45,808 bases of DNA from positions 1 through 45,808 of the forward strand of contig JAFDXD010000028.1 of the NCBI GenBank assembly GCA_018268135.1, read 5' to 3'. Position numbers and translations under genes: made by a program. The DNA is from Bacteroidota bacterium. GTDB lineage: Bacteria > Bacteroidota > Bacteroidia > Chitinophagales > Chitinophagaceae. Positions 10,500 through 16,943 of this stretch are shown piece by piece. Numbering within the stretch: position 1 is the first letter of the stretch; each line of letters opens with the position of its first letter. Under the pieces are notes generated by a model that did no database searches, was not told the DNA's origin, and was given only the letters and a program-made list of their open reading frames with translations.

Positions 10500-12653
10500 T
10501 TATTCTTCTACTTTCATCTTGCCTTTTGCTTTTGCCATCACCTCTTCTGCAATATTGTTAGGTGCAGGTGAGTAGTGGCTAAACTCCATGGTAGATGTAG
10601 CACGGCCGCTCGATAAAGAACGCAACTGAGTTACATAACCAAACATTTCGCTCAATGGCACTTTGGCTTTAATAACCTGTACACCATGTTTGCTATCCAT
10701 ACCTTCCAGCATACCACGGCGGCGGTTAAGATCACCAGTTACATCACCCATGTACTGATCTGGTGTAAGTACTTCTACTTTCATGATAGGTTCTAGTAAT
10801 ACAGGTTTTGCTTTGCGGCCGGCTTCACGATATCCTTGTTTAGCACAAAGTTCAAAACTCATCGCATCACTATCTACCTGGTGAAAAGAGCCATCAAACA
10901 CACGTACTTTCATACTTTCCATTGGATAACCTGCAAGTACACCCGTGGTCATTGCAGATTCAAATCCTTTTTGTATAGCAGGTACAAACTCTTTTGGAAT
11001 TGAGCCACCAAATAAACCATTTACAAATTGGAAGTTGGTTTTACCATCATTTTCTTTTAAGAACTCCTCATCAGCAGGCCCTATTTCAAAAACAATATCC
11101 GCAAATTTACCACGACCACCTGTTTGCTTTTTCAAAGTTTCTCTATGTTCTACAGTTGTTTTAAATGCTTCTTTATAAGCAACCTGTGGCGCACCCTGAT
11201 TTATTTCTACTTTAAATTCACGACGCATACGGTCAATAATAATTTCCAGATGCAATTCGCCCATTCCACTCAAAATGGTTTGGCCGGTTTCTTCATCAGT
11301 TTTTACACGAAGTGTAGGATCTTCCTCAACTAATTTTGCAATAGCCATACCCATTTTATCTACATCAGCCTGGGTTTTAGGCTCCACAGCTACTGATATT
11401 ACAGGCTCTGGAAAAGTCATCGCTTCTAATACTATTGGATGATCTTCATTACACAAGGTATCGCCGGTTTTAATATCTTTAAATCCAACTGCTGCCCCAA
11501 TATCACCTGCTTCAATAAAATCTACAGGATTTTGCTTATTCGCATGCATCTGCATAATACGGCTGATACGCTCATTTTTGCCGGTACGGGTATTTAATAC
11601 ATAAGAACCCGAATCTAAACGGCCACTGTAAGCACGGAAGAATGCCAACCTACCCACAAACGGGTCAGTCATAATCTTAAATGCCAATGCACTGAATGGT
11701 TCTTTTGGATCAGAATGACGAACCAGTTCTTCACCCGTATCAGGATTTGTTCCTTTTATAGCTTCAATATCCAATGGCCCGGGCAGGTAACGTACTATTG
11801 CATCCAATGCAGTTTGTACACCCTTATTTTTAAAAGAAGAACCACACATCATCGGAATAATAGAAATATCAATAGTAGCCTTACGAATAGCTTCATGTAT
11901 TTCAGTTTCAGTTATCGTGTTAGGGTCATCAAAGAATTTTTCCAATAAATTATCATCATAGTCTGCAACGGCTTCTATCAGGTGTTGTCTCCATTCATTC
12001 ACTTCTTCTACCATATCTTCCGGAATGGGCACTTCGTTATAAGTCATGCCTTGTCCGGCTTCGTCCCATATCATTCCCTTCATGGTAATTAAATCTACCA
12101 CTCCTTTAAAACTATCTTCAGCACCAATTGGTAACTGCAAAGGCACTGCTTTTGCACCCAACATTTCTTTAATTTGTTTTACCACATTTAAAAAATCAGC
12201 ACCGGCACGATCCATTTTATTTACAAACCCAATACGTGGTACTTTGTAACGATTAGCCTGGCGCCAAACTGTTTCACTCTGCGGCTCTACTCCACTTACT
12301 GCACAAAACAAAGCAAGCAATCCATCCAATACTCTAAGCGAACGCTCTACTTCCACAGTAAAATCCACGTGGCCCGGAGTATCAATGATGTTAAATTTAT
12401 ATTGCTTTGTTTCTGCTGTCTTTTTATTTTGAACCATCGGGAAGTTCCAAAAGCAGGTAGTAGCAGCACTCGTAATAGTGATACCTCTTTCCTGTTCCTG
12501 AGCCATCCAGTCCATAGTTGCAGCGCCATCATGCACCTCTCCTATTTTATGGTTTACACCGGTGTAATAAAGAATACGCTCGGTAGTGGTGGTCTTACCG
12601 GCATCAATATGTGCGGCAATACCAAAATTTCGTTGATAACGTAAATCTGCCAT
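10500..12653 (-). CDS. fusA: Translation elongation factor G
   Basis: A 717-residue EF-G, the GTPase that drives mRNA-tRNA translocation on the ribosome and, with RRF, ribosome recycling. G motifs are complete: G1 [15 protein letters not shown], switch [11 protein letters not shown]3 DTPGH, G4 NKMD, and G5 in the CGSSFKNKG segment. Domains II-V follow, with domain IV beginning near [14 protein letters not shown] and domain V near [17 protein letters not shown]. The start [19 protein letters not shown] fits the family. It is transcribed alone here: rpsL and rpsG, its usual str-operon partners, sit more than 5 kb away on the same strand behind other genes. Expression is probably governed by the promoter at 12913-12942 and a leader of about 250 nt (separate entries). 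Confidence 0.98.
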
Positions 12654-12686
12654 TGTTTTATTTTTTTAAATTGATTTTTAAGTTTT

Positions 12687-12791
12687 TTATTTTTTAGTGT
12701 TATTCCCTTTTATTTTTTTGGGACCCGGCCAATTATCTTTTCTCAGCTTCATGGGCGTCGCACTCTTGTACTGTATCACTTTATTGAGCAT
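12687..12791 (-). CDS. Candidate 34-residue basic small protein or leader peptide upstream of fusA
   Basis: An ATG at 12791 opens 34 codons ending in TAA at 12687, 33 bp before the fusA start. The product begins MLNKVIQYKSATPMKLRKD and continues NWPGPKKIKGNNTKK; it carries ten Lys and one Arg and would be strongly basic. A stop codon lies two codons upstream in frame, so the ATG is the only ordinary start. In favour: it sits on the fusA transcript, its composition suits RNA or ribosome binding, and its start codon is buried in a predicted helix (12786-12792 with 12850-12856). Against: I recognise no family, third codon positions are much richer in G and C than in neighbouring genes, and the same bases may instead be fixed by RNA structure. 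It may be a ribosome-associated peptide, a regulatory leader peptide, or chance. Confidence 0.35.
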   Translation of the reverse strand: MLNKVIQYKSATPMKLRKDNWPGPKKIKGNNTKK

Positions 12792-12906
12792 AGCTTACCC
12801 GTAGTTTAGTCGGCTTTGTCACCGGCTCTGGGTCTTGATATGATGTGTTTATGCTCTCATATTATGCTAAATTGATCAGCCCCATCCTAAACTGCTGAAA
12901 CTTTTA
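12792..12906 (-). promoter_or_regulatory. Structured 5' leader of fusA (candidate cis-regulatory RNA)
   Basis: The first half of the fusA transcript has much higher GC than its AT-rich surroundings (28 G+C in the 60 bases 12781-12840, against 8 of 60 in 12661-12720). On the minus strand these pairings are possible: TCAGC with GCTGA (12894-12898 with 12876-12880); GAGCATA with TATGCTC (12850-12856 with 12786-12792); inside that, ACCC with GGGT (12830-12833 with 12797-12800); and a small CGG/CCG hairpin within. GTTTAG in the first loop (12887-12892) can pair with CTAAAC (12804-12809), a possible pseudoknot. GACCC (12830-12834) could instead pair with GGGTC near 12721-12726, giving two exclusive folds. 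It does not match the riboswitch or leader families I know. Transcription start is inferred from the promoter. Confidence 0.55.
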
Positions 12907-12912
12907 GCGGCG

Positions 12913-12942
12913 CAAAGGTAAGCATATTTTACTTAAAAACAA
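12913..12942 (-). promoter_or_regulatory. fusA promoter, Bacteroidota type (TTG-N19-TACCTTTG)
   Basis: On the minus strand a TTG (-33 element, 12940-12942) is followed by exactly 19 bases and then TACCTTTG (-7 element, 12913-12920), matching the Bacteroidota primary-sigma consensus TTTG-N19-TAnnTTTG. Transcription should begin near 12906, leaving a leader of about 250 nt before fusA. Confidence 0.75.
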
Positions 12943-13530
12943 GCTTTTTTTAGGTAAACATCACGAAGATGGTTGCCCCAATTACTTACTTAAATTAAAA
13001 TGAAACCATACAATAATTCCTTTAAACTGAAGCTTATTGGCTTTCAATTCTGTTTAAAAAGTACCTCAGCAAACCATTTATACCTAATGCTGTTTCTATA
13101 TAATTTTCCCTGATTTTTTATTCACATTTTTACTCATCCAAAGTGGAAATTTCATTAAAGCCTTTATCCATCGCAAATCCTGCTTTTTATCAACAATGAG
13201 TGAATAAGTACTTTACAATTATTTAACATTCATTAGTAACGTTGCTACTCATTTATATCTGTTTCATTTTTTTTAATAAAAATGAAGTAAAAACAGGCCA
13301 CTGTTTCAAACAGTACTGTTCTTGTAGTTATAAATATTTTCCACCGTTACAGTGGATTTTTTTCTGTAAGTCTTTAAATGCTTTATTGCATATAAAGAGC
13401 AACAAATAAAAACAACCGGGAGTTAAAAAGCCCAAACGACTATTAAAATTTTAAAACGCTAAAAACAGGTCAACTGATTTTTCAATAAAATCTCCCTACT
13501 GTTTTTTGAAAAAAATAAAAAAAAATTGCA
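12943..13530. other. AT-rich divergent intergenic region between fusA and nrdB
   Basis: Almost 590 bp without a gene I can support. The longest plausible frame is 37 codons (13000-13113, plus) and has no supporting context. The region holds a 7-bp inverted repeat with a one-base centre (ACTGTTTCAAACAGT, 13300-13314), and a hairpin TCCAC/GTGGA (13340-13344 with 13352-13356) followed by seven T's on the plus strand. That hairpin lies about 170 bp before nrdB and could act as a weak terminator or attenuator. I see no convincing NrdR box, cobalamin riboswitch or TAnnTTTG promoter for nrdB. Confidence 0.5.
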
Positions 13531-14502
13531 ATGCAAATTGAAGATGAAATCTTATTAAAAGAAAATAAAGATCGCTTTGTAATCCTCCCCATTAAATATC
13601 CAAAAATTTGGGAGCAGTATAAAAAACATGAAGCCAGTTTTTGGACTGCAGAAGAGATAGACCTCAGCAGCGATATGAAAGATTGGAATGCAATGAATGA
13701 CGGAGAGCGCCATTTTATATCACATATCCTCGCATTTTTTGCGGCAAGCGATGGTATTGTAAATGAAAACCTCGCCGTTAATTTTATGAGCGAAGTGCAG
13801 TTACCGGAAGCCCGCTGTTTTTATGGGTTTCAGATAATGATGGAAAACATCCATAGCGAAACTTATGCCTTATTAATTGACACTTACATTAAAGACCCTG
13901 TAGAAAAAGACCGCTTGTTTCATGCCATAGAAACTGTACCGGCTGTAAAGAAAAAAGCTGAGTGGGCTTTGCGTTGGATTGAGAACGGAAGTTTTGCAGA
14001 ACGCCTTGTTGCTTTTGCAGCAGTAGAAGGAATATTTTTTAGCGGAAGTTTTTGCTCTTTATTTTGGTTAAAGAAAAGAGGCTTAATGCCGGGTCTTACT
14101 TTCAGTAATGAACTCATCAGCCGTGATGAAGGATTACATTGCGAATTTGCCTGCCTGCTTTATAGCATGCTAAAAGGTAAACTTTCAAAAGAAGAAGTAT
14201 TTGCAATTATTGGCGATGCAGTAGAAATAGAAAAAGAATTTATCAGTGAAGCATTGCCTGTAAAATTGATAGGGATGAATGCAGATTTAATGAAGCAATA
14301 CATTGAGTTTGTAGCAGACAGGTGGCTTGGAGAATTAGGCTATCCTAAAATGTTTAATGCTACCAATCCATTTGATTTTATGGAAATGATATCTCTTGAA
14401 GGAAAAACCAACTTCTTTGAAAAAAGAGTTGGCGATTATCAAAAGTCAGGAGTGATTGGTGGTGCCAAAGAGCAAGCCTTTTCAATAGACGAAGATTTTT
14501 AA
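13531..14502 (+). CDS. nrdB: Ribonucleoside-diphosphate reductase, beta subunit (class Ia type)
   Basis: A 323-residue R2 subunit that holds the diiron-tyrosyl radical cofactor for making deoxyribonucleotides. Ligands can be assigned: Asp44 (AEEIDLSSD), Glu105 and His108 ([10 protein letters not shown]), Glu166 (AAVEGIFF), and Glu200 and His203 ([10 protein letters not shown]). Tyr112, four residues after His108 in the HSETY motif, is the expected radical tyrosine, so this is not the class Ic form that has Phe there. The C-terminus, AFSIDEDF, is the acidic/aromatic tail that docks to the alpha subunit. nrdA follows after 47 bp on the same strand, so the order is nrdB-nrdA. The leader region upstream is long (see 12943-13530). 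Oxygen is needed for this class, which suggests aerobic growth. Confidence 0.97.
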
Positions 14503-14549
14503 TTCCCCAATTTCTTACACATTACTACTAACACATTAAAATATATAAA

Positions 14550-16943
14550 ATGCAGGTTATTAAAAGAGATGGCAAACTTGAGAGTGTAAAGTTTGACAAA
14601 ATTACAGCAAGAATAGAGAAGCTTTGCTACAGCTTAGACAGACGATTTGTAAATGCAGTAGATGTTGCCAAAAAAGTAATTGAAGGCTTGTATGATGGTG
14701 TAACTACAACAGAGTTAGACAACCTTGCCGCAGAAACTGCAGCATCACTTACTGTAAAGCATCCTGATTATGCATTGCTTGCAAGCCGCATAGCAGTAAG
14801 CAATTTGCATAAAAATACTACTAAAAGTTTTTCGCAAACTATGAAGCAGTTGTATGCCTATACCGATAGCAAAACCGGCAAATATATGCCTCTGCTTGCA
14901 GATGACGTAGCAGATATCATTGAAAAAAATGCTCCCTTATTAGATTCTACCATCATCTACGATCGTGATTATGGATTTGATTACTTCGGCTTTAAAACAC
15001 TTGAAAAATCGTACCTGCTAAAACTAAATGGTAAAATTGTAGAGCGACCACAACACATGTTTATGAGGGTAGCCATTGGTATTCATAAAAATGACATTGA
15101 TGCAGCTATTAAAACCTATCATTTAATGAGTGAGCGTTGGTTTACTCATGCTACCCCTACTTTGTTTAATGCAGGTACCCCAAAGCCACAGATGAGCTCC
15201 TGCTTTTTATTAACCATGAAAGATGACAGTATTGATGGAATCTATGATACTCTAAAACAAACTGCAAAAATTTCGCAAAGTGCCGGCGGCATTGGCTTAG
15301 CTATACATAATATCAGGGCCACAGGTAGTTATATCGGAGGCACCAATGGCACCAGCAATGGTATCATACCGATGCTAAAAGTATTTAATGATACTGCCCG
15401 ATATGTTGACCAGGGAGGCGGCAAACGTAAAGGCGCTTTCGCTATTTATTTAGAACCCTGGCATGCTGATATTTTTGATTTTCTTGACCTCCGTAAAAAT
15501 CATGGCAAGGAAGAAATGCGTGCAAGAGACCTTTTCTATGCTCTTTGGATATGCGATTTGTTTATGAAAAGAGTAGAAGCAAATGAAGAGTGGAGCCTAT
15601 TTTGCCCAAATGAAGCTCCGGGCTTACAAGACTGTTATGGTGAAGTATTTGAAAAACTTTATCAAAAATATGAAACCGAAGGAAGAGCCCGGAAAGTAGT
15701 AAAAGCTCAGGAATTGTGGTTTGCTATTTTAGATGCACAAATAGAAACCGGTACACCCTATTTATTATACAAAGATGCAGCAAACAGCAAAAGCAATCAG
15801 CAAAATTTGGGTACTATAAAAAGCTCAAATCTTTGCACAGAAATAATAGAATATACTTCGCCTGATGAAATTGCAGTTTGTAATTTAGCTTCGCTGGCAT
15901 TGCCCCGGTTTGTAATGGATGGCAAATTCAACCACGATAAATTATACGAAGTAACCTACCAGGCAGCTATTAATCTTAACAAAATAATTGATAATAATTA
16001 TTACCCTGTAGAGGAAGCAAAAAATTCAAACCTGCGCCATCGCCCTATTGGCCTGGGTGTGCAGGGCCTGGCAGATACTTTTATTTTGCTTCGCCTTCCT
16101 TTTGAAAGCGATGAGGCTAAACAACTTAATAAAGAAATTTTTGAAACCATTTACTTTGCTGCAATGACGGCCAGTAAAGACCTTGCGAAAATAGATGGAC
16201 CATACGAAACTTATGCTGGCTCTCCGGTTTCAAAAGCAATATTTCAATATGATATGTGGAATACCGAGCCAACAATGCGATGGGATTGGTACACATTAAA
16301 AGCAGAAGTATTAAAACATGGCGTACGCAATTCTTTATTGGTTGCTCCTATGCCGACGGCTTCTACTTCGCAAATATTGGGCAACAATGAATGCTTTGAA
16401 CCTTATACCTCCAACATTTATGTACGCAGGGTATTAAGTGGCGAGTTTGTAGTAGTGAATAAACATTTACTAAAAGATCTTGTAGATTTGAACTTGTGGA
16501 ATGATGAAATGAAAAACTACATCATGTCGCACAATGGCTCCATTCAAAATATTAGCAACATCCCTGATAATATTAAAGAAATTTACAAAACCGTATGGGA
16601 AATTAAACAAAGAGCATTAATAGATATGGCGGCAGACAGGGGGGCATACATTTGCCAGTCGCAATCTCTTAATTTATTTATGGATGCTCCTACCAGTAGC
16701 AAATTAACCTCCATGCATTTTTATGGATGGCGCAAAGGCTTAAAAACTGGCATGTATTATTTGCGTAGCAAAGCTGCTTCGCAGGCCATTCAGTTTACTG
16801 TAGAAAAACAAGGCGGAAAAACTACTGAACCTTTAATAGACACTCATCATCTTACTATTGTTGAAAACAATACTGAAGAAACAACTCAATTAAATGGTGG
16901 CACTTGTAGCATGGAAGACGGCTGTATTAGTTGCAGTGGTTAA
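14550..16943 (+). CDS. nrdA: Ribonucleoside-diphosphate reductase, alpha subunit
   Basis: A 797-residue R1 subunit that reduces ribonucleoside diphosphates using the radical from NrdB. An ATP-cone is at the N-terminus ([18 protein letters not shown], about 1-90), so overall activity is probably allosterically switched by ATP/dATP. Active-site residues are visible: Cys218 (MSSCFLLT), Cys429 with Asn427 and Glu431 (SSNLCTEI), and Cys444 (AVCNLAS); Cys429 fits the thiyl-radical position and Cys218/Cys444 the redox pair. The C-terminal tail [15 protein letters not shown] supplies cysteines that exchange disulfides with thioredoxin or glutaredoxin. The twin tyrosine segment for radical transfer sits in [10 protein letters not shown]. 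It is followed by a strong terminator at 16977-17016, so the operon ends here. Confidence 0.97.

Follow-up and report, generated by a model that had tools for sequence, protein, structure and literature searches.

The supply of elongation factor G (EF-G), the product of fusA, is regulated in E. coli via S7 and the str operon, according to the scheme outlined in PMC10931766. EF-G acts together with RRF, and the two have been described as taking ribosomes apart at the first codons and after stops (PMC10158994). Two-codon leader minigenes have been reported to act in cis, with message protection as the authors' favoured explanation (PMC8708949). The ribosomes of Bacteroidota are described as making no use of Shine-Dalgarno pairing (PMC9976891). 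The main texts of PMC7247131, PMC2864571 and PMC6429828 contain no entry for fusA or EF-G. No description of the present leader, or of the repeat within it, was found in the literature searched, a search that subscription papers mostly lay beyond.

The locus described here lies in a window of 45,808 nucleotides, the whole stretch of DNA analysed, from a Bacteroidota bacterium of the Chitinophagaceae. The fusA leader in this window is real and conserved, and is made of two unrelated modules, a 5′ device and a 3′ dispersed repeat. The 5′ device, a conserved hairpin and a frame of a few codons placed on fusA in one family of environmental bacteria, looks like a built-in control device.

The fusA gene and the layout of its leader

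The gene, its promoter and the two modules of the leader are as follows.

10500..12653, minus strand: fusA, elongation factor G (TIGR00484 match above cut-off)
12913..12942, minus strand: promoter, TTG-N19-TACCTTTG (from the sequence; the box and a TTTGCGsCGC context recur 5′ of the leader in relatives)
12826..12910, minus strand: the conserved 5′ module of the leader in full (R2 covariance model, 76.9 bits)
12708..12791, minus strand: copy of a dispersed repeat, core 12755-12771 GTACAAGAGTGCGACGC (from genome copies; not part of the conserved fusA device)

An earlier note on this DNA had called the gene EF-G, which is borne out by TIGR00484 (1059.6 bits against a cut-off of 659.4). The promoter proposed there is present at 12942-12913 of the minus strand, and the end of its box lies 259 nt upstream of the fusA ATG (12653). 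Transcription probably starts at about 12906-12908, at the first bases of the P1 helix described below. The leaders of about 20 nt ascribed to three other genes with the same box were not reproduced; with a stricter form of the box, the window has just two such places at 400 nt or less from an ORF of at least 80 aa, and one of these is fusA. The genes nrdB and nrdA (ribonucleotide reductase; 13531-16943, plus strand) are divergent from fusA across an A/T-rich gap of about 600 bp.

The same note had described a GC-rich, structured leader. Its GC counts are exact (8, 30 and 28 of 60 in 12661-12720, 12721-12780 and 12781-12840) and the 5′ half is indeed conserved, but the GC-rich block is largely the repeat at 12708-12791, common to dozens of other loci, and its dispersed nature had been missed. 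When the leader was compared with its own genome, 28 places were found, namely itself and 27 that match only the 3′ part (query 209-313). As the other places match this part only and the 5′ part adjoins fusA in same-genus genomes, 12708-12791 was assigned to the repeat and the 5′ part was taken as the candidate leader.

The single leader folds no better than shuffled sequences (z of -1.31 for 254 nt and -0.07 for 190 nt), and the fold of the window sequence alone was rejected as evidence on these values. Rfam 15 gave no match in the window at the gathering score and none at E≤10 in 12500-13100, in agreement with the earlier statement that no known family could be recognised. In nine relatives, Rfam gave one sub-threshold match, outside the leader (L288:2474-2577). 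Since the single sequence gives no indication of unusual folding and Rfam has no match there, the case rests on relatives.

Conservation of the 5′ module before fusA

In all 80 leaders read, which span 13 genus codes of the family to which the window belongs, the 5′ module precedes fusA, and a downstream gene other than fusA was not seen among the module matches read. EF-G starts were sought in 59 same-genus genomes at E≤1e-60, with 49 genomes positive at 50 places, two of which were left out as the script did not locate the EF-G start. The 5′ module, including the motif ATGAGA(G/T), is present in all 48 readable fusA upstream regions, so that ATGAGA itself is found in 48 of 48 fusA genes with a readable start.

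A covariance model, R1, was built from 49 distinct leaders after four of 53 had been removed as duplicates. It matches 51 of the 59 genus genomes, with a single match in 49 and two matches in each of the other two. Of these 53 places, 50 are at EF-G genes and three at contig ends without a readable gene; the latter (L305, L307 and L308) were left out, as were L270 and L271, which repeat included genomes. The eight genus genomes without an R1 match are all among the ten without an EF-G start. One same-genus genome holds a second, more distant EF-G-like gene (L167, G021:C21), with 77% identity over the N-terminal part.

At family level, R1 matches 28 of 294 genomes and 12 of 101 genus codes. An EF-G start lies 103-241 nt downstream of ATGAGA in all 27 family loci read, 22 of which come from 11 other genus codes. 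A wider model, R2, built from 74 leaders that include the window sequence itself, has 12826-12910 as its sole match in the window at E≤10. It matches 37 of the 294 family genomes; on reading, 33 (13 genus codes) lie at fusA, and the four weak matches in G150, G205, G222 and G219 were rejected as chance. A scan of 198 genomes of the order gave family members only, plus one chance match (G470), and a scan of 247 genomes of the class gave two own-genus matches and two more (G737 and G557) that were rejected as chance, there being no EF-G in the locus. The large genome scans were run with strict filters, under which diverged leaders may be missed. Among 80 named EF-G loci, 61 were readable, the script not having located the EF-G start in the other 19, which were left out; the module is present in five (by title two Ferruginibacter, two Chitinophagaceae and one Bacteroidetes bacterium) and absent from 56.

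The gene rpsG lies within 900 nt upstream of fusA in eight of the 80 leaders (L120, L131, L137, L143, L282, L291, L299 and L306). Because rpsG is still near fusA in these eight, the leader lies there within an otherwise ancestral str gene order.

The P1/P2 hairpin

The 5′ module opens with a hairpin made of two helices, P1 and P2.

12903..12908, minus strand: 5′ strand of P1, GCTAAA, partner 12866-12871 (covariation)
12894..12898, minus strand: 5′ strand of P2, TCAGC, partner 12876-12880 (covariation)
12876..12880, minus strand: 3′ strand of P2, GCTGA (covariation)
12866..12871, minus strand: 3′ strand of P1, TTTAGC, ending 5 nt before the ATG of the upstream ORF (uORF) (pairing at the 5-nt spacer)

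The P1 pairing of the window, GCTAAA/TTTAGC, is exchanged in relatives for GCCAAA/TTTGGC, GCCGGA/TTCGGC, GTCAAA/TTTGAC, GCCGTA/TACGGC and others. In alignment A2, comprising 74 leaders fitted to the structure by R1, P1 cells are paired in 98-100% and P2 cells in 74.8%, with two-sided changes at all six modelled pairs of P2. The covariation score on A2 is 0.314, against 0.115 in shuffles (none of 500 reaching the observed value) and at most 0.071 for slid partners.

P1 was also counted from an anchor that ignores pairing. With four mis-anchored rows (L269, L277, L280 and L288) kept in, 426 of 444 cells are paired, where shuffles average 380 and reach 394 at most, and two-sided changes number 43 (shuffle maximum 22). 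The spacing between P1 and the uORF is exact: in 77 leaders, a 5-nt spacer gives 441 paired cells of 462, whereas spacers of 1-4 or 6-10 nt give no more than 229. On a quick tree from fusA DNA, leaving out three of the 80 leaders, the 5′ strand of P1 changed at least 18 times. An independent-pairs test on the tree for pair 3 of P1 had only two pairs on supported branches and did not reach significance. RNAalifold on the MAFFT alignment A1 found P1 alone; when P2 is named, 64% of its cells are paired on A1 and 75% on the model-fitted A2. The P1/P2 region folds better than shuffles on average (mean z -1.43, 74 leaders).

Covarying helices at a constant position before one gene, as found here, are characteristic of a structured cis-regulatory leader. 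The P2 pairing TCAGC/GCTGA had already been proposed in the earlier note, and is both present in the window and covarying in relatives; P1 had been missed. The lack of conservation or covariation that had been named as grounds for abandoning the idea does not hold for the 5′ half, and fusA almost certainly carries a conserved cis-acting leader.

The minimal uORF

Directly 3′ of P1 is a very short frame, followed by a second conserved element.

12849..12860, minus strand: minimal uORF ATG AGA GCA TAA, Met-Arg-Ala-stop (ATGAGA, early stop and tree counts)
12837..12842, minus strand: CATATC just 3′ of the uORF (conservation of CATA)

ATGAGA, which opens the uORF at 12860-12849 that had also escaped the earlier note, is present in 80 of the 80 leaders read, an invariance that is partly a sampling effect, as the rows were found with the motif or with a model containing it. 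Codon 2 is AGA in all 80 and never another Arg codon; GCN and GTN predominate at codon 3, and the frame is closed by TAA in 74 leaders, by TAG in 4 and by TGA in 2. An in-frame stop follows after at most four sense codons in 67 leaders and is missing from that range in 13. Early stops are found in 41 of 49 leaders, against 10 expected and a maximum of 22 when the next 40 bases were shuffled 2000 times. On the tree, no change occurred in ATGAGA, against at least 59 in nt 7-15, the nine bases after it, and at least 55 in the 6 nt before it. The early-stop state has at least 10 changes on the tree, so that the constraint on it, though strong, is not absolute.

From the uORF to fusA the distance is 98-302 nt. 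A conserved short ORF with a kept frame and stop, as seen here, is the mark of a regulatory minigene. The uORF is probably translated. CATA follows the uORF in 73 of 80 leaders, against 9.8 expected and a maximum of 18. The CATATC region and the start of the uORF may pair as P3 (12857-12862 with 12838-12843); the sequence of these pairs is nearly invariant and they have no two-sided change.

Other pairings proposed for the leader

Further pairings had been suggested from the single sequence, one of which falls in a distinct hairpin.

12797..12834, minus strand: P4, variable hairpin closed by ACCC/GGGT (folding z; alignment by eye)

The P4 region has a mean z of -1.81 over 74 leaders. The ACCC/GGGT helix is present in the window and many relatives have a CCC..GGG hairpin by eye, but the strict pattern occurs in only 21 of 74; as P4, the helix is plausible. 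GAGCATA/TATGCTC was rejected as a general helix, as relatives match shuffles: the longest helix between the uORF region and the downstream region averages 4.94 bp, against 4.91 in shuffled sequences (80 leaders). By eye, neither the GTTTAG/CTAAAC pseudoknot nor the competing GACCC/GGGTC pair is found in L126, which is among the most similar leaders, and the partner in the latter pair sits inside the dispersed repeat.

Three of the five proposed pairings are unsupported in relatives, and the switch between two folds is without support, even though the cis-acting RNA to which it was attributed stands in the form of a conserved, covarying 5′ half across 13 genus codes. Conserved and mutually exclusive pairings, as expected of a riboswitch or other two-state RNA, were not found, the uORF region pairing with the downstream region as shuffles do. 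No terminator-like site, as an attenuator would need, was found in 12600-13100 of the window. Just upstream of fusA, the predicted fold of the single leader leaves an A-rich stretch unpaired. Attenuation by a hairpin terminator and masking of the fusA start are therefore unlikely, and it is probably the amount of message that the leader controls.

The dispersed repeat of the 3′ half

The 17-base repeat core occurs 42 times exactly in its own genome and 46 times with up to one mismatch. It is present in 51 of 117 family genomes at up to 1283 copies, with 0 or 1 for the reversed control; the highest counts are 1283, 746 and 740 in three relatives, with 0 in many others. Its distribution is patchy within a single genus code (0 and 229 in g26; 115 and 0 in g27). 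The repeat is nearly always intergenic, lying in ORFs for only 3 of 44 own copies and, in two relatives, for one copy of 25 and one of 23. Copies were located in L169-L236 (own genome), G150 (L339-L344) and G143 (L345-L348).

The repeat is about 85 bp long, with a weak flanking consensus at fixed spacing. Where the next gene faces it stop-first, the distance from the end of the core to the stop codon is mostly about 40-60 bp. The sequence ATGAAGCTGAATAAAG..CCGGGTACAAAAAAATAA is found in many copies, with an in-frame small ORF MKLNKDxxPGTKK (e.g. L190:2480-2554 and L193:2501-2575), and inspection by eye gave a possible small coding frame, KSATPMKLNKDxxPG. The frame of the small ORF is broken by length variants of one base, and the opposite strand reads a hydrophobic stretch, FIGVALLY. 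As a structured RNA the repeat was rejected, since RNAalifold on 43 copies gave 4 pairs and -3.05 kcal/mol. A mobile repeat, an uptake-like sequence and a binding site are candidate readings.

Among the 80 fusA leaders the repeat occurs in only 23, which places it outside the conserved device. In these it lies 82-119 nt after the uORF start, always in the sense and never in the antisense orientation, with at least 13 gains or losses on the tree. The 3′ half was rejected as part of a fusA-specific RNA, its copies lying at many other loci. It is an example of a dispersed element entering the leader of an essential gene in one orientation.

Possible mechanism and alternative explanations

The reading put forward here, tentatively and at somewhat less than an even chance, is negative autoregulation of EF-G, in which the occupancy by ribosomes of a minimal uORF gated by P1/P2, and cleared by EF-G and RRF, feeds back on fusA. 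The loop is proposed from two elements of the literature introduced above, the disassembly of ribosomes by EF-G and RRF and the cis-acting leader minigenes. The fusA transcript would open with the P1/P2 hairpin. As only 5 nt separate the end of P1 from the start of the uORF, the geometry should make the hairpin and an initiating ribosome mutually exclusive; they would compete for the same RNA, and the hairpin would gate initiation at the uORF. A ribosome that initiates would read AUG AGA, usually one or two further codons and then a stop, and would be cleared via translocation, termination and EF-G/RRF-dependent recycling. When EF-G is short, the ribosome would dwell longer near the 5′ end. 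This occupancy might yield more fusA message through shielding from decay or from early (e.g. Rho-dependent) termination in the long untranslated stretch; it is taken to raise message yield because the A/T-rich start of fusA looks permanently open. Little EF-G would thus lead to slow clearance of the uORF and to more fusA message. What the relatives establish is the conservation of the leader, its restriction to fusA among the matches read, the covariation of P1 and P2, the exact spacing and the uORF frame, whereas uORF translation, a signal from EF-G and RRF and a change in message level are inferred.

Sensing of EF-G and RRF by the fusA leader is possible rather than probable. That the minimal uORF is a gauge of EF-G/RRF-dependent ribosome clearance, setting EF-G supply from its own leader, is rather doubtful. 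Several observations speak against the EF-G model: the uORF, at 98-302 nt from fusA, is too far for simple coupling; 13 of 80 leaders lack the early stop, a state that also changed repeatedly on the tree; EF-G sensing leaves unexplained the invariant AGA where any Arg codon might serve; and of the 294 family genomes sampled only 33 have the module.

A purely stabilising leader, in which a long-lived and highly translated mRNA is protected, with no sensing, by the 5′ hairpin together with a ribosome that sits on the minimal uORF, would fit a hairpin at the probable 5′ end with a minimal uORF adjoining, and leader mini-ORFs that protect mRNA have been described (PMC8708949). Such a leader should also occur on other highly expressed genes, yet there is one copy per genome, with two genomes having two, and this explanation is unlikely. 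Control by a ribosomal protein, S7 or another, which binds P1/P2 and blocks the leader, with the uORF as the cistron whose initiation is blocked, is also quite unlikely. The location of fusA in the str operon, repressed by uS7 as described in PMC10931766, the eight leaders with rpsG nearby, and a variable apical part on a conserved helix base, which suits a protein site, are all consistent with it; against these, the module is on fusA and never on rpsL or rpsG in every match read, and the shortness of the uORF and its ATG AGA start are left unexplained.

A tRNA-Arg sensor, in which the uORF works as a leader peptide with a single regulatory codon and responds to the charging of tRNA-Arg(UCU), is very improbable. 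Codon 2 is AGA in 80 of 80 leaders and no other Arg codon, which speaks for it; against it, control by just one codon is weak, neither a terminator nor an alternative fold was found, and arginine has no link with fusA. The least probable reading, to be given hardly any weight, is direct binding of EF-G to the mRNA that encodes it. On the ribosome, the site of EF-G is the sarcin-ricin loop of 23S rRNA (UACGAGAG), and UAUGAGAG of the leader agrees with it in seven of eight letters, in a gene that encodes EF-G. Imitation of the loop was rejected, as the loop-closing bases neither pair nor covary: nt -1 and nt 9 pair in 43 of 80 leaders (shuffles 44.8) and nt -2 and nt 10 in 32 of 80 (shuffles 30.8). 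The 3′ side is also variable, and conservation ends at the codon boundary.

If EF-G autoregulation through the uORF is true, Bacteroidota would have a direct, gene-specific control of EF-G through the invariant minimal uORF of a fusA leader. A translation cycle of the least possible length, with a 5′-terminal hairpin as its gate, would report the activity of the factor that its mRNA encodes. How cells measure EF-G activity would become testable, and the leader would be a natural reporter of ribosome recycling.

Comparison with known systems

The fusB leader peptide of Staphylococcus is likewise a short ORF, there ahead of a gene for coping with stalled EF-G; fusB is a plasmid resistance gene, and its sequence and phylum differ from those of the present leader. 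In the str operon of E. coli, the S7 site between rpsL and rpsG resembles it in that an mRNA structure in the same gene neighbourhood sets EF-G supply. There, S7 is described as acting at rpsG by translational coupling (PMC10931766), whereas the present leader is a separate one, directly before fusA, that has a promoter of its own and a uORF. Structured RNAs before fusA are also found in the rpsL-leader upstream of fusA in streptococci and in the Pelagibacter elements before rpsL and fusA, as reported in PMC2965389. The streptococcal element is given there as a premature terminator; in the present leader no terminator was found in the window, and it has a uORF and belongs to another phylum. 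Among Bacteroidota, rpsU (bS21) of Flavobacterium is likewise a translation gene with proposed translational autoregulation, but one that works via an extended Shine-Dalgarno sequence (PMC9976891). The leader minigenes of axe-txe and ler are alike in being cis-acting ORFs of two to few codons 5′ of the controlled gene, and are described as two-codon ORFs with Shine-Dalgarno sequences, close to the gene (PMC8708949). Unlike these, the present uORF is conserved over genera, is preceded by a covarying hairpin and lies 98-302 nt upstream.
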